Positions 30,898 to 48,930 of a DNA stretch of 64,000 bases are shown here, one piece after another. Position 1 is the stretch's first letter. Every line of letters starts with the position of its first letter. The notes below the pieces were generated by a model. That model saw nothing but the letters and a program-made list of their open reading frames with translations. It was not told the DNA's origin and searched no databases. Position numbers and translations under genes: made by a program. The DNA comes from Betaproteobacteria bacterium UKL13-2 (GTDB lineage: Bacteria > Pseudomonadota > Gammaproteobacteria > Burkholderiales > Usitatibacteraceae). The DNA is taken from positions 2,103,733-2,167,732 of the forward strand of contig CP012157.1 in assembly GCA_001602455.1 (NCBI GenBank). The letters run 5' to 3'.

Positions 30898-31035
30898 TTT
30901 TGTTTGTTGGCGGAGCGGAAGAATCCTTTTGCGATGAAGCCGCAAAAGCCGCAAAAGCCACTTCGCGCCCTGCATGGCGCTCAGATTCGTGAGGCGCAAA
31001 ACATGAAGCAGTTCATGTTTTGTGTCCCCACTCAG
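30898..31035 (+). repeat. Structured ~105-bp repeat, copy A, with tmRNA-3'-end-like left flank
   Basis: From gaatccttttgcgatgaag (~30926) to gtccccactca (31035) it is nearly identical to 42139-42243, apart from a 9-bp internal duplication (ccgcaaaag twice). It contains three possible hairpins: cttttgcg/cgcaaaag, gcgcc/ggcgc and aaacatgaa/ttcatgttt. The left flank ttttgtttgttggcggagcg (from 30898) resembles the sequence downstream of and including the 3' end of tmRNA (42330-42358), with mismatches. Confidence 0.7.
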
Positions 31036-31442: not shown

Positions 31443-33074
31443 ATGCGATTTGCGAATAGTCCTTGTTTCTGGGTGGTAGTTTTCTTGCTGCTACCGAGCA
31501 CTGCCAGTAGCCAAGCGATTTCAGCGACCCTGATGCACGACCGCGCGGTCGCCGCAGTTGAGCGACCACTACCCGGCCTAGCAGACGTGTTGGGTGCAGA
31601 GCCGACCCTGCGTGCGTCACCCGTGTTCGTGATTAGTCGCTTCGACAATACCGGCGATACGGGAGATAGTGACTGGGGTGCTGCTGTGGGCTGGGCTCTC
31701 ATGAATAGCATATCCGGACAATTTGGCGAGCTTGCTGTCATACCACCATACCAATCAGCGGAAGATGCAGCCACCAGAGGAGGTGCGGCTTTGACGGGCA
31801 GCGCGGCACTTAGCCTTTCTGCGAAGAGAACAGGGGCCGGCTTTGGATTGAGCGGCTCGATTCGCGTCGTAGATAGTCGGTTTGAGTTCCGCATGGATCT
31901 CTTCGAGTTTCCCGCTAACCATGTGAAACTTTCGACGACCAAAATCGGAGTGCTTTCTGCGTTGCCCGAAGCTCTGCAAGCGGCCGCGCAAGAATTGATT
32001 GAGCAAGCGGTCTTGGACTCGAGCGGGCAACGGTCGAGCGGAAAAGTTTTGACGCCGAGGCTCTCCGAGCTGACCGCGTTGTCCCGCGCGTTTGCGAAAC
32101 AATCGACATATAGCGCCCGCGAGTTGGCGGAAAGATATGCCACACTCAGCCGTGAGAACGAGGCTTCAGCTTCTCTTAACCTTCTATATCTGCAAGCACT
32201 TAACAGCCTTGCGGATCAGCGGCGCATGAGTGCAGCGGTACAAACAAAGATGCCGACCGCTCGCCAACGGCAGGAGCCCGCAGAAATCTATTCGCGGCTG
32301 TTACGTAGCCAATACAACCATGCCGGGATAGATGCAAGCTCAATCCTACATCTATCAAAGACGATCTTAGAGAATCCGAACAACATCGGCGCATGGTTTG
32401 CATTGACGGATGCCTACAATTCCGAAAACGTTATGTACCAAGACGACGAACGCGGAGGGACTTATGTAATTTCGGCAGCGATTGATCACCATCTAGGTAC
32501 GGCAAACGCCATAACGATTGCGCTGGAAACTTTGCGCCGATGGCCAGATCATTATCGGAGCTGGTCCACATTGGCCACGAGCTTGGCAGTGTACGCTGGA
32601 CTTGTGAGAGGCACAGCCTACTGGAATGAGATCCCCGAGGATGCGCGCACACGTTACCGAGCGATCATGGAAGTGGTAGAAGATTGTTTGCGAACGGCGA
32701 TTCGCAAGCATCCTGATCGTGGAGAGCTTCACCGAGCAATGATTGACCATGATCTGCGCGCTGGTCGAGATTGGATGGACTCATTTCGAGTCGCAGCGCA
32801 ATTGACGCCGCATTCCAAACGGCTTTACCAAACTGCGTTTAACTATGCGCGCCCGCAGTGGGGTGGTACCAAGGATCAACTAAAAGAGATATATGCGACG
32901 TCCGTGAAAAACAATCCGGGCGAAACTTGGCCTCAGATGCTGAGAGAAGAATGGGCGCCTGAAATAGTGCCGTGGATCGATCTCGAAAAGCCGCTTGTTC
33001 GCTATACGCTGATATTCGTGGGTTTGGTGCTGTTCGTCATTGTTTGGCAAGTACGGAAGCAGCGTCGAAGTTAG
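31443..33074 (+). CDS. Exported TPR-type protein with TolB-N-like domain and C-terminal membrane anchor
   Basis: 543 residues. A signal peptide ends near STASSQA. Residues ~58-180 (FVISRFDNTGDTGDSDWGAA, then GFGLSGSIRVVDSRFEFRMD) resemble the TolB-N/FlgO-like domain often placed before TPR repeats in signalling proteins. The middle is helical with TPR-like stretches (DASSILHLSKTILENPNNIG, AWFALTDAYN). A single membrane helix near the C-terminus (YTLIFVGLVLFVIVW) is followed by a basic tail KQRRS, so the bulk is periplasmic. Function unknown. It lies inside the repeat-bounded segment but is convergent with the kinase/helicase operon, so a link to it is uncertain. Confidence 0.75.
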   Translation: MRFANSPCFWVVVFLLLPSTASSQAISATLMHDRAVAAVERPLPGLADVLGAEPTLRASPVFVISRFDNTGDTGDSDWGAAVGWALMNSISGQFGELAVIPPYQSAEDAATRGGAALTGSAALSLSAKRTGAGFGLSGSIRVVDSRFEFRMDLFEFPANHVKLSTTKIGVLSALPEALQAAAQELIEQAVLDSSGQRSSGKVLTPRLSELTALSRAFAKQSTYSARELAERYATLSRENEASASLNLLYLQALNSLADQRRMSAAVQTKMPTARQRQEPAEIYSRLLRSQYNHAGIDASSILHLSKTILENPNNIGAWFALTDAYNSENVMYQDDERGGTYVISAAIDHHLGTANAITIALETLRRWPDHYRSWSTLATSLAVYAGLVRGTAYWNEIPEDARTRYRAIMEVVEDCLRTAIRKHPDRGELHRAMIDHDLRAGRDWMDSFRVAAQLTPHSKRLYQTAFNYARPQWGGTKDQLKEIYATSVKNNPGETWPQMLREEWAPEIVPWIDLEKPLVRYTLIFVGLVLFVIVWQVRKQRRS

Positions 33075-33165: not shown

Positions 33166-34404
33166 TCACACAGACGCCTGACCCGTAGTTGAAGCAATAA
33201 AGGTTTCGTCTTTCGTTCGAAGCGACACCTTCTTTATCTCTTCTAATGAAAACCCAGTTTCAGAAGTTCGGGTCGAGAGTGCCTCGAAAAGTTGCTCAGG
33301 GTTTGACTGTCTCTTGATCTTCATTTCTGTGATTACCTGGTCAATAAACCTCAAAACAATGACATCGCGCTCAAGTTTTGATCCACGTCTTGCCAGTAAC
33401 GACAGGGTGCGCCCCCTCAAGATACGAGGAAATCCAGGTACTGGCCGCGCAAGAAGACTTCCAGCAGCAACATGCAATGGGTAAAGCCGACCCGCAACCT
33501 TTTGTTCAAAGAACCTGTCATCGCAACCTGACAAAGTGAATACTGGGTTGCTGTTGGAATCAAGCTCACCCTGGCCATCCAAAACCAATCCAATCCTCTT
33601 CAATTCCTCTGCCAGGGCTCGAACGACCTGAACGGGACTACTGGCAGGGTACCCAAGAGGTTCGAGCAAGCCGAGGACATCGCTTGCGCTGAGCCAGTCC
33701 ACCTTGCCGTGCGAAAAATGAAGTTCCACTTTTGTTTCCACACCTAGCTTGAACAACAATATTTCACACTCAAGAAACTTGGGCTTTTCTGACTGCGCAA
33801 GGACGCCGCAAATCTCAATCGCCTCCTCCGGGAGGTTTACTGCACGCTTGTTTGGTATGGACCCCAAATTAAGGTGCGACAGGGTTATTTCAGAGCTCTC
33901 CCTGATTAGGTCAGGAACAAATCTAGACCCTCTCAGTTGCGAGGGATCTATCGTCGGCATCAAGTAGAGCTCCCGAGGCACCAACCTGCCAGAAAGCCCG
34001 CAAAGGAGAATCACACGATCCGTTTCGAGCACCTCTGCGCCGTGCGCAATTGTTAGCTTACCGAGTTCACTAAGCATGAATTTGGTTGCATGCATGGAAT
34101 CTTGCGAAAGCAACCCTCTTCCTGATAGCTCATGAAGAATAGGAACTAGCTTTTCTTCTGGGAAACCAATGACAAATGCAAATTCCGCTTGATCGGACAC
34201 GCCATGGCCAGCAAACCGGAGAATGTGCGATTCGAAATCCCCCAGCTGCTCACGACTCTTTTCCCGTATACGGACGACAATCTCAAGAACCGGATACAAA
34301 GCCTGTTGTTGATAGATCACCGATCCGCCTTGAGCAGAGATCCGGTCAACGACAGACCGAACGCGCGTACGTGGAGAAATCGGCTTTTTGGACGTCTGAT
34401 TCAT
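33166..34404 (-). CDS. Unrecognised protein with winged-helix-like N-terminal part, last gene of the kinase/helicase operon
   Basis: 412 residues from the ATG at 34404, two bases after the helicase stop; the frame extends 11 codons further into the helicase. I do not recognise the family. Residues ~50-115 (ESHILRFAGHGVSDQAEFAF, then PEEKLVPILHELSGRGLLS and KFMLSELGKLTI) read like a winged helix, with a helix, a turn, a recognition helix ending RGLL, and a strand-turn. The rest is mixed alpha/beta without known motifs. No membrane helix or signal peptide. Tight spacing shows it is translated with the helicase, so it is a likely sensor, adaptor or DNA-binding partner. Confidence 0.75.
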   Translation of the reverse strand: MNQTSKKPISPRTRVRSVVDRISAQGGSVIYQQQALYPVLEIVVRIREKSREQLGDFESHILRFAGHGVSDQAEFAFVIGFPEEKLVPILHELSGRGLLSQDSMHATKFMLSELGKLTIAHGAEVLETDRVILLCGLSGRLVPRELYLMPTIDPSQLRGSRFVPDLIRESSEITLSHLNLGSIPNKRAVNLPEEAIEICGVLAQSEKPKFLECEILLFKLGVETKVELHFSHGKVDWLSASDVLGLLEPLGYPASSPVQVVRALAEELKRIGLVLDGQGELDSNSNPVFTLSGCDDRFFEQKVAGRLYPLHVAAGSLLARPVPGFPRILRGRTLSLLARRGSKLERDVIVLRFIDQVITEMKIKRQSNPEQLFEALSTRTSETGFSLEEIKKVSLRTKDETFIASTTGQASV

Positions 34405-34406
34405 AC

Positions 34407-37400
34407 TTATTTGGATTTTGCCAAGTCGGGCAGCCAAGCCGACGCATCAATCAATTGGCCGTGCTTTTGAACAAACGACCGAAGCTGAGCCATTGCGTCC
34501 TTGAACTCAGCGTCACGACGCCCAACCTTTGATGGTTTGGCCAATGTGGAGAAGTCTCCAATCATCACCAGTTGCCGCTTTGCCCTTGTCATAGCAACAT
34601 TCAGTCGACGCCAATCGGCAAGAAACCCGACCCCACCATTTGGGTTGGAGCGCGTAAAAGTGAAGACAATCAGATCACGTTCTTGGCCTTGATAGCTGTC
34701 AACAGAGGCAACCAATTCATTTATGGGTGACGGTAAGCCGAGCAATTCGCCAGCGCGCTGGCGGGCGGAGATTGCACGTTGAATTTCCTGTACATGCAAC
34801 TTATAGGGAACAATAACCCCAATTTCCCGTCTCTCACCTAAATCAGGCGACGAGCTCAACGCCCGCCCCAACACATCCAAGACTAATCGCGTTTCAATCA
34901 CGTTGCCAATCAGTTCATCCCGATCATCTCCGCGACGTGAACTCTCTTGCCTAACGTGCATAGGCAATTTCGATGTATCTATGAAAACCATAGGGCTGCT
35001 GAAAAAACTAAATAATGGTTTCTTCTCAGCCATGCCAGCACCGGCAAAATATTTATTTTCATAAAACGCTGCGGATATGTAATCACTGATTACGGCTGGA
35101 CACCTGAATTGTGTATTCAGCATGGCCTTGCGGTCTTCCGGGGCAGAATCCCACAACAATTCGAACCAACTCTTCTTCAAGAGCTTGGTATCAATGTCTC
35201 CACTATCTGCTTCTGCCCGTGACGCTACTTCGTCAACCAACTCATCTTTTACAACCGGCGGAAGCTGCTTGTGATCCCCCACCAAGATGGCCTTCGGCGC
35301 GCGTGACAAGGGAACCGATAAATTGTGCAACTGTATTTGTCCCGACTCGTCAACAATTACAACGTCAAACAAAGCCTCCTTAAAAAATTTGTTTGTATTG
35401 ATACCAATACAAGTGGCCCCGACAACATCAACAAAATTCAAGAGAATTGAATACAAGCCTTCCTGACGCTGATTGGAAATAGTCTTATGCCATGCGGTTG
35501 CCTCGTGTACAACTCGAACAAAGGACTCACGAACTACTGCCAACTGGGTCAGCTTTACTTTTCTTAGGGTCTCGACACTGCCCAACAGCTGCTGATACTC
35601 ACTATTCAACTTACCTTGGACTGAGCCATGCTCTGCTTCAATTTGAGCTAGCAGCGCCACTGCTTCTCTAGTGACGGCGTCCACTTTATCGGTATAACGC
35701 TTCTCGGCCGCTGCCAATTCGGATTCATGCTTCGCAATCAAGGCCCGTTTGCGGCGTGAAACCCCCCATGCCGCGATGCTGTACAAAGGCTTCAATAAAC
35801 CGCTCTTCTCACTAAGCTGTTGCTTGCGATCATCCAAAGCTTCACACTGGGTTTGATGAACTGCGCCAAAACTTTCAACTTCCGTTTTTCGGTCTTTTAC
35901 TAGTTTTGAAAGTAGTGCTGTCTTTTGATCTTCAACACCCAGCGAATTACTCTTCAGTTCATTCGTTAACTGCTCAAGCCGAAGGGGTATCGCAGTTAGC
36001 CGATCGTGATAAGTCCGCAAAACACTGGTCGAAAAAACGTTTTCCCCAACAACCGCGTGGGTGAGAAATCCTTTTAAATCGCCAAGCTTTTCAAAAGCGA
36101 ACTCCTGAAGCCGATCGAGACCGTCTGCAAATCCATCCACACCGTGTCCCATGGCATTTCCTGAGACTTCCATAGCAATGCACATTTTTTCAAAGTGTGC
36201 CAACAACGAAACGTTTCGCTCCAGTGCGTCAACAAGCCTTCGCTGCAGGCTGGATGCACAGTTGTCAATCAGTAGATCGTGAACGGATGAACTTACGGTT
36301 CCTTCACTGCCAAGTCGGACACAAGTCAACTTGCGGTTCTCTGCGAGTCGCTCCAATACGTTATCTACGGCCTTGTTATTCTGCGAACTTATCAAAATTC
36401 GCTTCCCTTGAGACGCGAAAAACTCAACCCACCGCAAAATAACGGTCGTCTTTCCCGTCCCAGGTGGGCCAAGAACGAGCATGTAGTCATCTGTTCCAGC
36501 GCCTGCGTTGATCGCAAGCAACTGAGAGGGATTTGGTGGATTCTTAGCAGGAGGAATAGGAACCGAAATGGTTGGTCTATTCGAATGTACGTAACTCTGC
36601 GCCGCCAGAGGTACTAACCAACGGTTAGGAGACAGTCGCTGTCTCAAGTTTTCTATGACTTGCAGCCTGACGTTTTTTTGAGTTGGATTTGCAAATAGCA
36701 CCAAAGTACCTGTATCGGGAATTGCTCCCGACGCAAGTTGCTCCCCAGTCGAGACAACGATCTGATGTATTCCTCCATTGGGTGCCAAATCATCGACACG
36801 AAACTGCAAAAGACGCTCGCCAACGGCTCCCTCAAGTGCCAACATACCTGGTGCCAGCGCCCTTAGTCGCTTGCAATCGGACTCCAACAAACGAAGGCGA
36901 AAATACTTCCGAACACTTGCAACCCGCTTCTCTGGCGTGACCTCTACGAATGCGAACCCGGCAATCGCACGTGCCTCTTGTTCTTCCAGGAAATACTCGG
37001 CCTCTACATAGGTCTCAAGCGTATGAAGGAGGTTTTCCTCAGTTTCAAGCAATGGCGTCAATGGCTCGTCTTCCTCGTCGGCTCGATGCTTCCCTTTTCC
37101 AACCTCGGGGGCTTGCTTTGCTTCAAGTGAGACAAGTTCTGTGGCGAAGCGCCCGCTGGAGTAAACGCTGTCACGATCCGTGAAGTCGCGAAAAAATGCA
37201 TCAAACGTGGTCAATGCAATGCCTCTGTGCTCTATCCGAACACCCTGCACAAGCATTGTTCTCCGCATGCTGTTATTTGCGAATTTAATGCCTGACTTGG
37301 TTAAATTGACCCTTAAGGTTCCTTGCCCGCTTTGATTCCGCTTGCACACCGTCTGGATCATGTACCTACCGACAAGAAAATTCAAAAAGTGACCGCCGCC

Positions 37401-37622
37401 TCCATCCATAGGTTTGATGGAAACATATGCGGACTTACTAGCTGACAATTCCGCCTTGATCTCCGACCATGAGGGAAAGTTTCCTCCAGGCCACTCAGTT
37501 CGTTGGTCATAGTCTTCACCACGAATGATTGGTATGACGAAAGATAGCTGAACAATATCTTGAGGCCTCCAAAACTTTAGTGTTCCAGTCGTCGGTATCA
37601 ACTTGGCGTCAGATGTGCGCAT
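34407..37622 (-). CDS. UPF1-like superfamily 1 helicase with coiled-coil insert
   Basis: 1071 residues. Residues 1-360 are an N-terminal region I do not recognise. The helicase core has Walker A GPPGTGKT (385-392), motif Ia ISSQNNKAVDN, motif II DES (VVIVDESGQ, 758-760), motif III VGDHKQLPP, motif V VASVDSYQGQERD (971-983) and motif VI RLNVAMTRAKRQ. This order and the AAA_11/AAA_12 style place it with UPF1/DNA2/Nam7-type SF1B helicases. Between motif Ia and motif II is a ~300-residue insert rich in charged helices (about residues 540-720), probably a coiled coil like a DNA-clamp arm. It lies 37 bp downstream of the kinase gene. Confidence 0.9.
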   Translation of the reverse strand: MRTSDAKLIPTTGTLKFWRPQDIVQLSFVIPIIRGEDYDQRTEWPGGNFPSWSEIKAELSASKSAYVSIKPMDGGGGHFLNFLVGRYMIQTVCKRNQSGQGTLRVNLTKSGIKFANNSMRRTMLVQGVRIEHRGIALTTFDAFFRDFTDRDSVYSSGRFATELVSLEAKQAPEVGKGKHRADEEDEPLTPLLETEENLLHTLETYVEAEYFLEEQEARAIAGFAFVEVTPEKRVASVRKYFRLRLLESDCKRLRALAPGMLALEGAVGERLLQFRVDDLAPNGGIHQIVVSTGEQLASGAIPDTGTLVLFANPTQKNVRLQVIENLRQRLSPNRWLVPLAAQSYVHSNRPTISVPIPPAKNPPNPSQLLAINAGAGTDDYMLVLGPPGTGKTTVILRWVEFFASQGKRILISSQNNKAVDNVLERLAENRKLTCVRLGSEGTVSSSVHDLLIDNCASSLQRRLVDALERNVSLLAHFEKMCIAMEVSGNAMGHGVDGFADGLDRLQEFAFEKLGDLKGFLTHAVVGENVFSTSVLRTYHDRLTAIPLRLEQLTNELKSNSLGVEDQKTALLSKLVKDRKTEVESFGAVHQTQCEALDDRKQQLSEKSGLLKPLYSIAAWGVSRRKRALIAKHESELAAAEKRYTDKVDAVTREAVALLAQIEAEHGSVQGKLNSEYQQLLGSVETLRKVKLTQLAVVRESFVRVVHEATAWHKTISNQRQEGLYSILLNFVDVVGATCIGINTNKFFKEALFDVVIVDESGQIQLHNLSVPLSRAPKAILVGDHKQLPPVVKDELVDEVASRAEADSGDIDTKLLKKSWFELLWDSAPEDRKAMLNTQFRCPAVISDYISAAFYENKYFAGAGMAEKKPLFSFFSSPMVFIDTSKLPMHVRQESSRRGDDRDELIGNVIETRLVLDVLGRALSSSPDLGERREIGVIVPYKLHVQEIQRAISARQRAGELLGLPSPINELVASVDSYQGQERDLIVFTFTRSNPNGGVGFLADWRRLNVAMTRAKRQLVMIGDFSTLAKPSKVGRRDAEFKDAMAQLRSFVQKHGQLIDASAWLPDLAKSK

Positions 37623-37659: not shown

Positions 37660-38526
37660 TTATGAGAAGTATTTCCGTTGAACATTCATGACTGCAGCCT
37701 TGAACTGGGATGAGTCCTGGTAGCGATTCTTCGGGTTGTAGTTCATCGACTTCAACAACACACCCTGCAATTCATCAATACCGGGAATTCGCGATTCGTT
37801 CGCCGACAATCGACAATCCAACCCACCCGCCCAATCCGTAACCGTATCGTTGGGGAACCGGAGTAACGGTGCGCCAGTAAATAAAAACCAGCCGACTTGA
37901 CCCATTCCGAACACATCGGTTGCGGGGCTAAGGTTGAAGTCACGCCGTCCAGCCTGCTCCGGCGATTGATAGTCCAGTGTTCCTTCTTCTAAAACTCGCT
38001 TTACCGCGCTTGATCCAAAATCAATTACAGCCACGCCATCCCTCGGAGACCTTCGATTTCTCAAAAGCATGTTTTGCGGCTTTATGTCACGGTGAATGAA
38101 TCGAGCCTGATGGATTCTCTCAATGGTTTTGGCCATTTCAACAATCATTGCTACTCGGAGAGAGAAACTCTCCCGATCAAGTGCAGGCTCTCTTTTGGTG
38201 ACATCATCGAAAGTATCCCCGTCCATCCAGTCCATGAAGATGTAGGTAAAACCTTGTCGCGCGAAAATACTGCGGAAACGGGGAAGTAGGGAAGGCAGCT
38301 GAACTTGCCGATTTAGTGCTACCAGTTCCGTGTGAATTGCACGAGAGTCATTCAAAGAATCGTCAAAAACTTTCATGGCATATTGAAGGCCATCTTCTTG
38401 ATTCTTGACTTGATAAAGGGCCCTACCCGTGGTGTTAATGGCGTTATAGATTGTCTTGACAATGTGAACCGTATGGGATTGAGTCCACTCCAGTGGCTGT
38501 CCGACCCTCAAATCAATCATCGCCAT
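37660..38526 (-). CDS. Ser/Thr protein kinase with intact catalytic residues
   Basis: 288 residues (or 286 from the inner ATG at 38520, which makes an ATGA overlap with the upstream stop). All key positions are present: the Lys of the VAIK strand in YAMKVF (K52), the catalytic loop HRDIKPQNMLL (H145-D147), the DFG motif in VIDFGSS (169-171), the SPE variant of APE (188-190) and DVFGMG with the conserved Asp. The glycine loop is poorly conserved. It is a soluble eukaryotic-type (Hanks) kinase without an extracellular domain. It follows the NERD/pseudokinase gene directly, so the fusion protein or the helicase is a likely substrate. Confidence 0.92.
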   Translation of the reverse strand: MAMIDLRVGQPLEWTQSHTVHIVKTIYNAINTTGRALYQVKNQEDGLQYAMKVFDDSLNDSRAIHTELVALNRQVQLPSLLPRFRSIFARQGFTYIFMDWMDGDTFDDVTKREPALDRESFSLRVAMIVEMAKTIERIHQARFIHRDIKPQNMLLRNRRSPRDGVAVIDFGSSAVKRVLEEGTLDYQSPEQAGRRDFNLSPATDVFGMGQVGWFLFTGAPLLRFPNDTVTDWAGGLDCRLSANESRIPGIDELQGVLLKSMNYNPKNRYQDSSQFKAAVMNVQRKYFS

Positions 38527-40595
38527 TTCTCGACTACTTCCACTAACTTGCTTCCAACAGGCCTACGACTCGGATCGAAAGCAAGGATGCTGGACATCGA
38601 GTTCTCTTCATCAGGGTCAAAGCCACAATGCGTACTTACCGAAGCCCAAAACCCCGCTTTGGCCATTTTCTTTTGTTGCTCTGCTGGAGACGCATATGGC
38701 AGCGACGCATCAGCCGATAGAACGAAGCAAGCCAATTTACCAAAGCTATATACATCGGCCGAAGGACTCACTTGACGTCCAGCTACTAGAACTTCCGGCG
38801 ATTGATAATGGGTGTCAAGTAGCGCTCGCGCGTTCTGTGCAATGGTCGCTGAGCTTTGCAACTTGCAAAGTTCAAAATTAATGATGATGTGTTCACCTTT
38901 TTCGTCCACGCGAAGGTTGGACGGAGTCAAGGCCCGATGAACAACTTCTTCTTTGGCAAGAATACTTAACGTCTTGGCGATGTCCAACAAGAGCCTCAAA
39001 CGTTGCTCGCGTGAAGGATTGGTGTTGCGAAGCCAGTCGTCAAGTTTCTCGCCAGCAATGTGATCTAACGCAACAAAAAGACTCCCAGGTTCATCCCAAG
39101 CATCCAGAGCTCGTTGAATATGCTGACTCACGGGCAGATCTTGTGACGCTGTCAGTTCCCGACGTAAACGGTCTATCTCGCTTTCAAGCCCGTCGCCCCT
39201 ATCCATTGAAGTTAAGGGATATTCCTTTATCCACACCATTCGATCTTTGCCCTGGACGTTACCCAGATACACCTTGTAAAAACTGTTTGACTCACTCTCC
39301 AGTGCAATGGGACGGTACGTGAAGCGGCCATGCTGCCTCAAGGCAGTTGTTGATACTCCTACCGGCAACGAACGCGTGAGGTGCATAACAATCTTTTCAA
39401 TCTCCTTTTGACTAATGATTGAGGGCAGCACATTGGGTAGCGGACGACCGGTCACATTCGCTAACTTGGAACCAAGTGTCGACTGATGAGGCCCAGAATT
39501 TGGCTGTTGAGGTACAAACCGCTGCATCTTGGCTTTTATCGCGGCGGCCATTGACTCTGGTGTGCAAACGATGACGTCTCCCAAGTCTCTTGGTAAAGGT
39601 CTTGTTTTTGACTCATAGTCAATACTGTGCACATTGACATTGGGATTTGTGAACACAACTACCCCATACGCCCGTGCCGCCTTTTGAAGGGGTGTACCCC
39701 AGTCAAACCTTTGGAAGTTACTTCTCAATAGCCCCATTAATTGCGCGATTGGGTTTTTCCCATCCAACGGCTCAACACGGTTACCGCGAACTCTGGACAT
39801 TTTTGTATTTTGCGAATTCTCTGGTAGCGTGATTTGCCCCCAATGGTCTTTGAGTTCCAAGACGAACAACCCCCACGGGCTTACCAATATCCCGTCCGCC
39901 ATATTCGAAGAATGGACCCCCTGGAAGTATTGCCCGCCAACGATTTTGAACCCATCAAAAGTGGGGTCTCGAAAGAGGCAGTCGGCAACTCTCGAAAGCC
40001 CCCTTTTTTCATGATCCCGTTCTTCTTGAGAACCTGCAAAAGGGTTGTACGTCCAATTGCTATTGACATAGCTCAAAGTTGACTCAAAGGGAAATGCGAG
40101 CATTGCCCAATCGTCGCAGCCTGAAACTCTTTTACCCAGCGCGGCCAAGTCGTCTTCTGACCGCGAATTCTCAAGGGTTTGCGCCCCAATGCCTTTGAAT
40201 TCGGCGCCAAACCCAGTGGCAGAGGCAAGAAAATACTCGGACGCATTGAGGTTTAATCGGCTCGTTTGAGGCACCAGGGTGGCGGACCGGTCGAGTCGAA
40301 TAACGTTCGATGCGCCAAGTGATTGAACGACAATGTGCCCGGGCTCGCGTTGAAACACTGTCAGCCGCAATTTTTCAGTGCCTTGAGAAGCCGAAGTTTC
40401 AGCTATCGCGACAGCCGCCACTGCACTTAACTGGTCATGGCCATCCCATTGGCACGTGAGTTCCGAGATGAAGTCGGCTGAGTTCTCCAGACGAGTGGCG
40501 TCAATCACAGCCGCAAGGACACCGCCAGGATGTATCCAAGCAGCTTTTCCTGAGACCTTCTTGTCCGAAGTCACCACTTTAAAGAACATTTCCAT
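38517..40595 (-). CDS. PP2C-like / NERD nuclease-related / pseudokinase fusion
   Basis: 692 residues in three parts. Residues 1-170 resemble a degraded PP2C phosphatase: AVIDATRLE, VQSLGASNVIRLD, YFLASATGFG and the closing GCDDWAMLAF, with most metal Asp lost. Residues ~190-330 are a NERD (nuclease-related) domain with the active-site pattern intact: ADGILVSPWGLFVLELKDHW, giving D234, E247 and K249. Residues ~430-690 have a kinase fold with the VAIK-type Lys (VWIKEY, K457), but the catalytic loop is HRALTPSNL (HRD to HRA) and DFG is NFE, so phosphotransfer is not expected. It is the first gene of the operon. Closest architecture known to me is PglW (kinase plus NERD) of BREX type 2. Confidence 0.85.
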   Translation of the reverse strand: MEMFFKVVTSDKKVSGKAAWIHPGGVLAAVIDATRLENSADFISELTCQWDGHDQLSAVAAVAIAETSASQGTEKLRLTVFQREPGHIVVQSLGASNVIRLDRSATLVPQTSRLNLNASEYFLASATGFGAEFKGIGAQTLENSRSEDDLAALGKRVSGCDDWAMLAFPFESTLSYVNSNWTYNPFAGSQEERDHEKRGLSRVADCLFRDPTFDGFKIVGGQYFQGVHSSNMADGILVSPWGLFVLELKDHWGQITLPENSQNTKMSRVRGNRVEPLDGKNPIAQLMGLLRSNFQRFDWGTPLQKAARAYGVVVFTNPNVNVHSIDYESKTRPLPRDLGDVIVCTPESMAAAIKAKMQRFVPQQPNSGPHQSTLGSKLANVTGRPLPNVLPSIISQKEIEKIVMHLTRSLPVGVSTTALRQHGRFTYRPIALESESNSFYKVYLGNVQGKDRMVWIKEYPLTSMDRGDGLESEIDRLRRELTASQDLPVSQHIQRALDAWDEPGSLFVALDHIAGEKLDDWLRNTNPSREQRLRLLLDIAKTLSILAKEEVVHRALTPSNLRVDEKGEHIIINFELCKLQSSATIAQNARALLDTHYQSPEVLVAGRQVSPSADVYSFGKLACFVLSADASLPYASPAEQQKKMAKAGFWASVSTHCGFDPDEENSMSSILAFDPSRRPVGSKLVEVVEKWR

Positions 40596-41104: not shown

Positions 41105-41452
41105 TCACGCGATGGCCAGCAACGCTTTGATTTTTGCCCTTACGTGACTCATTACTGAGGTGGGGGCGACCGCCTTTTTCTTCGCATTTCGAATCTTCCA
41201 ATCGAGCGACTTCACTTGATCAGACAGCACCGCACCGGGAACCCCGTCAATCTCAAACACCACCTCAAACGGATGCCCCTTGACTTTGGTGCTCATGGGG
41301 CAGTAGACCATCAGCCCTGTTTTACCGTTGTAGCTTGCCGGACTGACGACCAAAGCAGGACGATGCCCAGCTTGCTCATGTCCAGCCTGGGGATTGAACT
41401 CCAGCCAAACAACATCTCCAGCATCAGGCACATAGCGGCGCGATGCCATCAA
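41105..41452 (-). CDS. mazF: MazF-type endoribonuclease toxin
   Basis: 115 residues. The MazF/PemK family is clear: YVPDAGDVVWLEFNPQAGHE followed by QAGHRPALVVSP with the catalytic Arg, LMVYCPMSTKVKGHPFEV with Thr/Ser in the second catalytic segment, and VLSDQVKSLDWKIR. It cleaves RNA at short sequences when freed from its antitoxin. The ATG overlaps the mazE stop by four bases (a second ATG follows directly). Confidence 0.94.
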   Translation of the reverse strand: MMASRRYVPDAGDVVWLEFNPQAGHEQAGHRPALVVSPASYNGKTGLMVYCPMSTKVKGHPFEVVFEIDGVPGAVLSDQVKSLDWKIRNAKKKAVAPTSVMSHVRAKIKALLAIA

Positions 41453-41691
41453 AGCGCCTCTTTGCCCACTGGCTTGCCGAAGCTGACCTCAGCATGTGCA
41501 TTTTGCGGGGTGATTCCAGCGAGCAAGTCATCCAAGTTGTATTCCACATGCTCAGATGGCTCAATCACGATACGTCCACGGCTGACGATGATCGTTACCT
41601 TCTGCTCCAAGCTTAAGGCAGCTTCCTTTAGTGCCAACGCAGGCAACCTTAGGGCCGGGCTGTTACCCCATTTTCGAATGACAGCTTCCAT
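41449..41691 (-). CDS. mazE: MazE/AbrB-type antitoxin
   Basis: 80 residues. The N-terminal swapped-hairpin AbrB fold begins MEAVIRKWGNSPALRLPALA, as in MazE; the C-terminal ~35 residues, acidic and probably flexible, should bind MazF. It is upstream of the toxin, coupled by an ATGA overlap. A dyad just upstream is a likely autoregulatory operator. Confidence 0.92.
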   Translation of the reverse strand: MEAVIRKWGNSPALRLPALALKEAALSLEQKVTIIVSRGRIVIEPSEHVEYNLDDLLAGITPQNAHAEVSFGKPVGKEAL

Positions 41692-42092: not shown

Positions 42093-42123
42093 AATGCAAA
42101 GAGAGTGTCTTTGCAAGTTTTTA
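42093..42123 (+). terminator. Terminator-like hairpin
   Basis: tgcaaaga, 5-base loop, tctttgca, then agttttta. It lies directly before the tmRNA-end-like word at 42124. Confidence 0.6.
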
Positions 42124-42143
42124 TGGTGGAGCCGGCGGGAATC
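42124..42143. repeat. Attachment-site-like duplicate of the tmRNA 3' end
   Basis: tggtggagccggcgggaatc matches the tmRNA 3' end at 42339-42358 (tggtggaaccggcgggaatc) at 19 of 20 positions. tmRNA 3' ends are well-known integration sites, and such a direct repeat is what an integrated island leaves. No integrase gene is present in the window. Confidence 0.6.
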
Positions 42144-42243
42144 CTTTTGTGATGAAGCCGCAAAAGCCACTTCGCGCCCTGCATGGCGCTCAGATTCGTG
42201 AGGCGCAAAACATGAAGCAGTTCATGTTTTGTGTCCCCACTCA
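42139..42243 (+). repeat. Structured ~105-bp repeat, copy B
   Basis: Nearly identical to copy A and in the same orientation, from gaatccttttgtgatgaag to gtccccactca. With copy A it brackets 31.0-42.1 kb. It contains the same three potential stems as copy A. Confidence 0.75.
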
Positions 42244-42299
42244 TCCCGCGTCCGTTCCGGACGCGAGTTCGGTTCCCATCAACGTCGAAGTCAACAAAC

Positions 42300-42332
42300 A
42301 AAAATACCACCCAAACGGCGGGTGGTATTTTT
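42300..42332 (-). terminator. Terminator downstream of tmRNA
   Basis: aaaaataccaccc pairs with gggtggtattttt around a short loop, 7 bp past the tmRNA 3' end. It is T-rich on both strands, so it may work both ways. Confidence 0.85.
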
Positions 42333-42338
42333 GTTTGT

Positions 42339-42700
42339 TGGTGGAACCGGCGGGAATCGAACCCGCGTCCGCAAGCCCTCTACAGGCCGATCTACATACT
42401 TAGATTCCATTATTTGATTTCGCCCCACGTACGCCAATGGCCGGGCTGACGCGACGCTAGCCACCTTAATTTAACTCCCTGCCAAGTAGCCCGGCAGAAA
42501 GCGATCCTCGTTAATGACTCTGCTGTACCTTGCGATACCTAGCGTTGAGGCCCACTAGTGCAGAGCGCGGCCGGTTATTAAGCGGCTAGTGCGTAGTTTT
42601 CGTCGTTTGCGACTATTTGTTTGCGGTTGTATTTACGAGGTGACCACCCCTCGGTATGCACGGTTCTGCTTAATGCCCACGTCGAAACCAGGTCGGCCCC
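42339..42700 (-). ncRNA. ssrA: Transfer-messenger RNA (tmRNA)
   Basis: 362 nt. The 5' end GGGGCCGACCTGGTTTCGAC and the 3' end GGTTCGATTCCCGCCGGTTC plus CACCA form the tRNA-like domain; GGGGCCG pairs with CGGTTCC (two G-U pairs) and CCA is encoded. The tag reading frame at 42610-42578 is GCA AAC GAC GAA AAC TAC GCA CTA GCC GCT TAA TAA, giving ANDENYALAA, a tag of betaproteobacterial type. It rescues stalled ribosomes with SmpB. It forms the right border of the accessory region, in line with its common use as an integration target. Confidence 0.96.
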
Positions 42701-45648: not shown

Positions 45649-46428
45649 TTAACCATTCTTCCAGTTGGGTTTACGCTTTTCTAGGAAGGCGTTCACCCCT
45701 TCTTGCTGGTCTTCGAACGTGAACAGATCCATAAACCGTTCGCGTTCTAGTGCCAGCCCCGCCGTACGCGGGATGCCGTTACGCGCATTGTGAATGAGTG
45801 ATTTGCAGAACGATACCGACTTAGGTGATAGCCCTGCCACTCGCTCCGCCATTTTTATGGCGGCGGCGAGTGACGTACCTTTCTCCACCACTTCCTCAAC
45901 CAAACCAATACGTAGCGCTGTTTCAGCGTTCACGCGCTCGTTGGTCAGAATCATTCGTTTGGCCCAACCTTCGCCGATAAGCCACGGCAGGTTTTGTGTG
46001 CCGCAGCCGCCAGGCAGTAAGCCGACCGCTGGTTCGGGCATTGCCATTTGCGCGTGAGATTCGGCGATACGAATGTCGCACGCCAGCGCACCTTCGAGCC
46101 CGCCACCCATGCAATAACCATTGATTGCGGCAATGGTGACAAACCGAGCGTTCATCCAAACCTCAAACGCAGCGCCAAAGGTGTGGATGAAGTGGCGCGC
46201 CGCCATGATGTTCTTTTCATCACCACCCTGGAATCGGTTGAGGTCAGCGCCTGCTGAGAAAAATTTCTCACCTTTGCCGGTGAGGACAGCCGCATAGATG
46301 TTGTCGTCGGCTTCGAGCTTGTGCGCGAGGTCTTTGAGTTCGCTGAGCGATTCAGGCGTCCAAGTATTAACGGGTGGGCTGTTCAGTGTGACCACACAGG
46401 TGTGGCCGATGATCTTTGTCTCAATCAT
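45649..46428 (-). CDS. Enoyl-CoA hydratase/isomerase family protein of the valine pathway cluster
   Basis: 259 residues from the ATG at 46428, preceded by AGGGAACGACGA; the frame extends to 46491. It has the crotonase fold: oxyanion segments FFSAGADLNRF and NGYCMGGGLEGALACDIRI, then EPAVGLLPGGCGTQNLPWLI with the active-site Glu region. By position after mmsB it probably hydrates methacrylyl-CoA or a related acyl-CoA, but the sequence does not fix the substrate. Its first 32 codons with the ribosome site are the start of the tandem repeat array, so the region before the gene holds seven further copies of its 5' end. Confidence 0.88.
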   Translation of the reverse strand: MIETKIIGHTCVVTLNSPPVNTWTPESLSELKDLAHKLEADDNIYAAVLTGKGEKFFSAGADLNRFQGGDEKNIMAARHFIHTFGAAFEVWMNARFVTIAAINGYCMGGGLEGALACDIRIAESHAQMAMPEPAVGLLPGGCGTQNLPWLIGEGWAKRMILTNERVNAETALRIGLVEEVVEKGTSLAAAIKMAERVAGLSPKSVSFCKSLIHNARNGIPRTAGLALERERFMDLFTFEDQQEGVNAFLEKRKPNWKNG

Positions 46429-48045
46429 TCGTCGTTCCCTTTTGTCATTCTGACCGAAGCGCAGCGGAGGAATCTCATCTGGAAGCACCAACGTACATCG
46501 ACGGGATGAGATCCCTCATTGCATTCGGGATGAAAGTGAAAAAATTTGAGTTCGCTGAGCGATTCAGGCGTCCAAGTATTAACGGGTGGGCTGTTCAGTG
46601 TGACCACACAGGTGTGGCCGATGATCTTTGTCTCAATCATTCGTCGTTCCCTTTTGTCATTCCGACCGAAGCGCAGCGGAGCGGAGGAATCTCATCTGGA
46701 AGCACCAACGTACATCGACGGGATGAGATCCCTCATTGCATTCGGGATGAAAGTGAAAAAATTTGAGTTCGCTGAGCGATTCAGGCGTCCAAGTATTAAC
46801 GGGTGGCTGTTCAGTGTGACCACACAGGTGTGGCCGATGATCTTTGTCTCAATCATTCGTCGTTCCCTTTTGTCATTCTGACCGAAGCGCAGCGGAGGAA
46901 TCTCATCTGGAAGCACCAACGTACATCGACGGGATGAGATCCCTCATTGCATTCGGGATGAAAGTGAAAAAATTTGAGTTCGCTGAGCGATTCAGGCGTC
47001 CAAGTATTAACGGGTGGGCTGTTCAGTGTGACCACACAGGTGTGGCCGATGATCTTTGTCTCAATCATTCGTCGTTCCCTTTTGTCATTCCGACCGAAGC
47101 GCAGCGGAGGAATCTCATCTGGAAGCACCAACGTACATCGACGGGATGAGATCCCTCATTGCATTCGGGATGAAAGTGAAAAAATTTGAGTTCGCTGAGC
47201 GATTCAGGCGTCCAAGTATTAACGGGTGGGCTGTTCAGTGTGACCACACAGGTGTGGCCGATGATCTTTGTCTCAATCATTCGTCGTTCCCTTTTGTCAT
47301 TCCGACCGAAGCGCAGCGGAGCGGAGGAATCTCATCTGGAAGCACCAACGTACATCGACGGGATGAGATCCCTCATTGCATTCGGGATGAAAGTGAAAAA
47401 ACTTGAGTTCGCTGAGCGATTCAGGCGTCCAAGTATTAACGGGTGGCTGTTCAGTGTGACCACACAGGTGTGGCCGATGATCTTTGTCTCAATCATTCGT
47501 CGTTCCCTTTTGTCATTCTGACCGAAGCGCAGCGGAGGAATCTCATCTGGAAACACCAACGTACATCGACGGGATGAGATCCCTCATTGCATTCGGGATG
47601 AAAGTGAAAAAATTTGAGTTCGCTGAGCGATTCAGGCGTCCAAGTATTAACGGGTGGACTGTTCAGTGTGACCACACAGGTGTGGCCGATGATCTTTGTC
47701 TCAATCATTCGTCGTTCCCTTTTGTCATTCCGACCGAAGCGCAGCGCAGCGGAGGAATCTCATCTGGAAACACCAACGTACATCGACGGGATGAGATCCC
47801 TCATTGCATTCGGGATGAAAGTGAAAAAATTTGAGTTCGCTGAGCGATTCAGGCGTCCAAGTATTAACGGGTGGCTGTTCAGTGTGACCACACAGGTGTG
47901 GCCGATGATCTTTGTCTCAATCATTCGTCGTTCCCTTTTGTCATTCTGACCGAAGCGCAGCGGAGCGGAGGAATCTCATCTGGAAGCACCAACGTACATC
48001 GACGGGATGAGATCCCTCATTGCATTCGGGATGAAAGTGAAAAAA
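46333..48045. repeat. Eight tandem ~212-217-bp repeats carrying the 5' end of the enoyl-CoA hydratase gene
   Basis: Units begin (tttgagttcgctgagcg) at 46333, 46545, 46762, 46973, 47185, 47402, 47613 and 47830; the last ends next to the mmsB stop at 48046. Each unit holds ~96 bp of the gene start (ATG plus 31 codons), its ribosome site and ~115 bp of palindromic intergenic sequence (ggaatctcatc ... gatgagatccctc). Units differ by a 1-bp deletion (gtgggctg/gtggctg) and by a 5-bp agcgg insertion. Only the first unit belongs to the intact gene. The other starts would give ~71-residue or shorter frameshifted peptides. Confidence 0.95.
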
Positions 48046-48930
48046 TTAGTCTTTCTTGTATAACTTGATGATGCTCGAAAAATCCAACGCGCCATTGCCC
48101 ATTGCCGAATGCATTTGATACAACTGTTGCGCCGCCGCGCCGAGCATCACGGGTTGCTTTGCGGCCTTAGCCGCCTCTGTCACCAACGTCAAGTCTTTGA
48201 GCATTAAGTCCGAACCGAACCCGCCGCTGTAACCGCGATTCGCTGGTGCCGTCGGCACCACGCCGGGGTAGGGGTTGTATGTATCGGAAGACCAGCAACG
48301 CCCGCTAGACGTATTCGCGATGCTGGCAAACACGTTCGGGTCCATACCGAGCCGAGTTGCCAATGCCATGCCTTCAGCGGTGGCGATCATCTCAATGGCC
48401 AGCATCATGTTGTTGCAAATTTTCGCCACTTGTCCATTACCTGCGTCGCCGCAATGCACGATGTTTTTACCCATACATTCGAGGATGGGTTTTGCGCGCA
48501 AAAAGTTTTCCGCAGTGCCACCAACCATAAAGGTCAGTGTGCCGGCTTCCGCACCGCCCGTTCCGCCTGAAACCGGCGCGTCAATCATCGCCAAACCTTT
48601 CCCCATCGCATCCATCGCCACATCGCGAGAGGTGTGGGGGTCAATGGTCGATGAGTCGATGAGTAATGTGTTCGGTGCCGCCGATGCGAGCACGCCGTGT
48701 GCATCCTGATACACCCGACGTACATGTGGCGAGGAGGGCAGCATGGTGATAACGACATCCACGTCCTGCGCGCACTTGCCCGCAGAAGTTGCAGTTTCAC
48801 AGCCAAGATCGGCGAGTGGTTTGACCAATGCGGGAACGATGTCGAATACTTTTAACGCGTGGCCGTGCTTGAGGAGATTCCGAACCATCGGATTCCCCAT
48901 ATTCCCCAGACCAATGAACCCTATCCTCAT
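48046..48930 (-). CDS. mmsB: 3-hydroxyisobutyrate dehydrogenase
   Basis: 294 residues from the ATG at 48930 (MRIGFIGLGNMG); the frame is open to 49002. It oxidises 3-hydroxyisobutyrate to methylmalonate semialdehyde with NAD in valine breakdown. The Rossmann motif GFIGLGNMGNPM, the substrate signature DAPVSGGTGGAEAGTL and the catalytic Lys in NGQVAKICNNMML are present, with a C-terminal KDLTLVTEAAK. It precedes the tandem repeat array and enoyl-CoA hydratase, and follows mmsA and a small membrane protein gene on the same strand. Confidence 0.95.
   Translation of the reverse strand: MRIGFIGLGNMGNPMVRNLLKHGHALKVFDIVPALVKPLADLGCETATSAGKCAQDVDVVITMLPSSPHVRRVYQDAHGVLASAAPNTLLIDSSTIDPHTSRDVAMDAMGKGLAMIDAPVSGGTGGAEAGTLTFMVGGTAENFLRAKPILECMGKNIVHCGDAGNGQVAKICNNMMLAIEMIATAEGMALATRLGMDPNVFASIANTSSGRCWSSDTYNPYPGVVPTAPANRGYSGGFGSDLMLKDLTLVTEAAKAAKQPVMLGAAAQQLYQMHSAMGNGALDFSSIIKLYKKD

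Follow-up and report, generated by a model that had tools for sequence, protein, structure and literature searches.

The order of a NERD domain, an inactive kinase and then an active kinase is described in the literature for PglW and a subset of the DndF proteins (PMC12839542), and NERD is also listed among the domains of Mokosh type I (PMC10952713). In Streptomyces, the kinase activity of PglW is essential for phage resistance, the K677A substitution abolished its autophosphorylation, and cloning of the full-length protein in E. coli was barely possible (PMC4365076). No role for the dead kinase in PglW, DndF or Mokosh was found in the literature, and a literature search gave no paper in which NERD, PP2C, kinase, helicase and phage occur side by side.

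In Betaproteobacteria bacterium UKL13-2, related domains are encoded in a stretch of 64,000 nucleotides (contig CP012157.1, positions 2,103,733 to 2,167,732), referred to here as the window. The open reading frame at 38517..40595 (-) encodes a protein of 692 aa, which was divided with the help of Pfam and syntenic relatives into a PP2C-derived part, a NERD domain and a pseudokinase. Judged from its sequence, the gene product is probably an enzyme that cuts DNA or RNA, with a dead kinase domain and a degraded phosphatase. We consider it reasonably likely that the operon of this gene is a rare relative of Mokosh type I with an anti-phage function, in which MkoA-like parts are distributed over three genes and the product of this gene is the subunit that holds nuclease and switch.

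The gene is the first of a four-gene operon and is followed by genes encoding an intact kinase, a helicase and a wHTH protein, all four being full-length and open. The kinase gene (37660..38526, -) overlaps the NERD-pseudokinase gene by 10 bp and encodes, according to ORF analysis and Pfam, an active-type Ser/Thr kinase of 288 aa with intact AMK, HRDIKPQN and IDFG motifs. The helicase (34407..37622, -; 1071 aa) is an SF1 enzyme of the COG1112/IGHMBP2 family and of MkoA type, with the motifs GPPGTGKTT (Walker A) and DESGQ; MkoA was the top of all PADLOC models (305.6 bits), and matches to TIGR00376 (221 bits), AAA_11 and AAA_12 were also obtained. The last gene (33166..34437, -), overlapping the helicase gene by 31 bp, encodes a wHTH-containing protein of 423 aa whose similarity to MkoB covers only residues 46-164 in PADLOC (9.6e-5) and only 87 N-terminal columns in hhalign (49%). 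No consistent PLD (HKD) motif was found in any MkoB-like protein. Since the same operon encodes an intact kinase, a Mokosh-type helicase and a wHTH protein, the 692-aa protein does not act alone. These live kinase and helicase partners had been missed in the preliminary description of the gene, as had the probably live phosphatase of its relatives and the precedents in PglW, DndF and Mokosh.

Relatives of the 692-aa protein, with 30-33% identity, were found in Azospirillum lipoferum 4B (locus L004) and Shewanella fodinae (locus L005). In both loci the first four genes occur in the same order as in the window, with kinase and helicase as separate genes; the partner kinase is intact in 3/3 of these split loci, and the window helicase is 41-42% identical to those of both relatives. 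A fifth operon gene in both relatives (15669-16940 of L004 and 17151-18419 of L005) encodes a CorA-like membrane protein, similar to PADLOC CorA models and a possible membrane effector; tblastn found no CorA-like gene in the window. The Azospirillum operon lies on a plasmid and adjoins a BREX operon (BrxL, PglZ, PglX and BrxC), and upstream of the Shewanella operon are a LeoA-type dynamin gene (LeoA) and a gene for a PtuA/NsnB-like ATPase. Samples of 399, 398, 274, 190 and 247 genomes, which partly overlap, gave matches only in the genomes from which the queries came. Besides these samples, one plasmid in 72,556 matched, narrow search patterns led to one genome locus, and no match was found in viral contigs (three queries), phages or E. 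coli genomes. Three members were found in total, and the 692-aa protein is very rare.

Pfam Pkinase matched residues 441-679 (5e-18), and motif alignment places the pseudokinase domain at residues about 430-690 (38526..39308, -). As had been read from the sequence before, the VAIK-type lysine of strand beta-3 is kept (K457), HRA at 553-555 replaces HRD and NFE at 573-575 replaces DFG; E480, a candidate alpha-C Glu, and N560 are also retained. The two aspartates required in an active kinase are thus replaced by A555 and N573. According to the preliminary description, HRD and DFG in homologues would have refuted its reading; the homologues carry instead HRA/NFE in Shewanella, HRG/GFE in Azospirillum and, in PglW, HRA/N-W. 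Because the loss is found again in homologues that share about 30-33% identity, chance is excluded as its explanation. Further, S581 and T584 in the former activation loop are invariant across the three related proteins and are candidate phosphosites.

A similar loss is seen in PglW from other genomes: in five full-length proteins, the first kinase has HRA and N-W-Q at the corresponding places, while HRD/DF is present in the second; one divergent PglW has HRN/AFD. In the first kinase of long Mokosh MkoA (n=8), the beta-3 Lys is replaced by Arg, the HRD Asp is kept in 8/8 and the DFG Asp is lost in 8/8. A dead first kinase is found in PglW, MkoA and the split loci alike and is thus a constant part of the NERD-kinase-kinase arrangement; Mokosh, however, has lost other residues than the group formed by PglW and the split loci. 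The NERD-pseudokinase module is colinear with PglW over 397 columns (E 8e-15) and with long MkoA over 361 columns (E 1e-11). For long MkoA, domains were also aligned separately, as a global alignment misplaced them. By these alignments, the head of BREX PglW and that of long MkoA are both homologues of the module. In a kinase-domain tree of these very divergent domains, grouping the pseudokinases with the first kinase of PglW or with that of MkoA gave a p-AU of 0.08 in each case, and grouping them with their own partner kinases gave 0.28; none of the three was either supported or rejected. Since this tree does not tell whether PglW or MkoA is nearer, the HRA common to PglW and the split group could be due to descent or to convergence. 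Separately, two plasmid Mokosh loci were seen with an interrupted long MkoA, which is split after NERD in one (L021, 6995-11947) and cut by an IS3-type element in the other (L023, 6977-13363).

Residues 1-172 (40080..40595, -) form a degenerate PP2C/SpoIIE/RsbX-like domain that was recognised through its relatives. Alone, this region of the window protein gave no match in Pfam or other profile libraries. The corresponding region of the Azospirillum relative matched PF07228 SpoIIE (2.3e-4), that of the Shewanella relative matched PF07228 SpoIIE (0.025) and PP2C_2 (PF13672; 0.054), and the window N-terminus aligned end to end with those of the relatives (hhalign 95%, E 4e-8). At the four metal-binding positions of RsbX/SpoIIE-type phosphatases, both relatives align with four aspartates (D-D-D-D) and the window protein with K17, D32, T127 and D162. 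The earlier reading of a PP2C phosphatase without metal ligands is thus right as to origin and to the loss at K17 and T127, but two of the four ligands remain. Because both relatives keep all four aspartates, the degeneracy is confined to the window copy; the phosphatase is probably live in the family, and the window domain is left with a binding or structural function at best. The earlier picture of two dead domains around a live nuclease would accordingly fit the window protein, but not its relatives, in which the PP2C domain is probably not dead. Regulatory use of the dead domains, as was also proposed, is probable. A search of the N-terminal profile against PDB structures gave RsbX without significance (E 0.27-0.36) and G-alpha structures by chance. 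AlphaFold2 models, made from an alignment of only two rows, reached a pLDDT of 38 for the N-terminal domain and 32 for the full protein, too low for the models to be of use.

The window locus could be a decaying copy, since it is without the CorA-like gene and has lost PP2C ligands; the family would then work with an active phosphatase and the membrane protein, and the rest of the window operon would be drifting after the loss of both. In addition, the PP2C domain of the window copy seems to have a shorter helix-rich stretch, though the alignment is uncertain there. However, the four remaining genes are complete, their lengths match those of the relatives, and the motifs of helicase, kinase and NERD are all preserved, which makes decay an unlikely explanation.

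The NERD domain comprises residues about 183-345 (39561..40049, -). Pfam NERD matched residues 228-288 with a value of 0.0023, below the Pfam cut-off, and a profile-profile comparison with the NERD domains of eight Mokosh MkoA proteins by hhalign gave 93% and E 3e-7 (controls E>0.3). The helix Glu, Asp and ExK (E196, D234 and E247-x-K249) are in register with the MkoA NERD columns and are invariant in the three related proteins at 30-33% identity, which bears out the earlier claim of intact nuclease residues. It could be argued that NERD serves as a nucleic-acid-binding or scaffold domain in which these residues are kept for structure, and that the wHTH protein or the helicase does the damage, all the more as the nuclease activity of the PglW NERD was still uncharacterised at the time of the PglW study (PMC4365076). 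The invariance of the whole set and its alignment with MkoA speak against this, and we regard it as rather improbable.

The operon sits within perfect direct repeats of 89 bp, 11.2 kb apart (30946..31034 and 42155..42243, both +), the right copy being beside the tmRNA (42339-42700). The block between them has a low GC content, 0.47-0.50 as compared with about 0.6 to its left, and no integrase was recognised between the repeats. The 3' end region of the tmRNA is partly repeated nearby (window 42119-42358, with 25 nt at 42119) and on the far side of the block (30898-31034, where tmRNA 3' end repeats of 17 and 30 nt accompany the 89-nt repeat). This repetition, both nearby and across the block, suggests insertion of the block at the tmRNA. 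A host regulatory or stress system with no role in phage defence is very improbable: kinase, PP2C and helicase modules serve cellular regulation as well, but the operon is sporadic and absent from the other sampled genomes, lies beside BREX on the Azospirillum plasmid and occupies a low-GC block between repeats in the window.

Other features were observed around the operon. A complete MazEF-type toxin-antitoxin pair (41105-41691, -) is present between the operon and the tmRNA, with a MazF (41105-41452, -) above the NCBIfam cut-off and a MazE-like ORF of 80 aa (41449-41691, -). Inside the repeat-bounded block, an ORF of 543 aa (31443-33074, +) is convergent with the operon; it has a signal-like start and a hydrophobic C-terminal stretch, and had no match in Pfam, NCBIfam, PADLOC or PHROGs. 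Further along the window, a tandem array (46333-48047; 212-bp unit, 8 copies, 96% match) begins within an enoyl-CoA-hydratase-like gene (45649-46491, -), in its 5' part, and extends upstream of the gene.

The reading of the 692-aa protein as part of a Mokosh-related anti-phage operon draws on its domains as seen in the sequence, on motif losses that the relatives share, on the operon itself, on homology with both PglW and MkoA, and on the defence genes that lie next to the operons of the relatives. In such an operon, the helicase with the wHTH protein would detect nucleic acid of the infection, and the intact kinase, which would pair with the pseudokinase in the manner of PglW, would phosphorylate or remodel the NERD protein. 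NERD would thereby become an active nuclease and cut phage or host nucleic acid. In the relatives, an intact PP2C on the same chain may keep the switch off or reset it, and in the window the degenerate PP2C could presumably only bind. A more tentative proposal, which we hold to be somewhat doubtful, is that phosphatase, nuclease and pseudokinase form a one-chain switch of an anti-phage nuclease with the kinase acting in trans. The PP2C/kinase pair of the family would then be a reversible guard; in the window, the phosphatase would have become a dead docking domain and the nuclease would be controlled only through pseudoenzymes. Since NERD-pseudokinase and live kinase are on separate proteins, gating of the nuclease by the pseudokinase can be asked about directly, with the kinase added or withheld. 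The family further suggests a phosphatase as off-switch, of which live and degenerate versions can be compared.

Among known systems, RsbX and SpoIIE-type PP2C phosphatases share their four-Asp pattern with the Azospirillum and Shewanella copies; unlike them, the PP2C domains of the relatives and of the window are fused to NERD-pseudokinase, and the window copy is without two of the four ligands. By its published description, the DndF subset of DndFGH also contains NERD, an inactive kinase and an active kinase, but these are followed by a P-loop kinase and sensor domains, unlike in the window protein. PglW of type 2 BREX has the same order of NERD, pseudokinase and active kinase that occurs here over two genes, and HRA together with the loss of the DFG Asp is likewise found in its first kinase. 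However, PglW is a single chain of 1400-1600 aa in a BREX operon, whose C-terminal half has wHTH and inactive STAND domains, whereas the window distributes the order over two genes, adds a helicase and has a PP2C domain besides, its protein ends with the pseudokinase, and its four-gene operon contains none of PglX, PglY and PglZ. Mokosh type I likewise combines NERD, a dead and a live kinase with a COG1112 helicase, and an MkoB-type gene comes next. Its MkoA joins kinase and helicase in a single chain of about 1600-1700 aa, in contrast to the three genes of the window; the first kinase of MkoA has Arg for the beta-3 Lys and keeps the HRD Asp, whereas the window protein keeps K457 and has HRA. 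Further, Mokosh type I has no PP2C domain, and the likeness of the window operon to MkoB is confined to the N-terminal wHTH. We do not assign the operon to Mokosh type I proper, because it has no fused MkoA and resembles MkoB only in part. Thus, the tandem of NERD, dead kinase and live kinase was known before, and what is new is its split over separate genes, the added PP2C domain and the union of a PglW-like signature with a Mokosh-like helicase.
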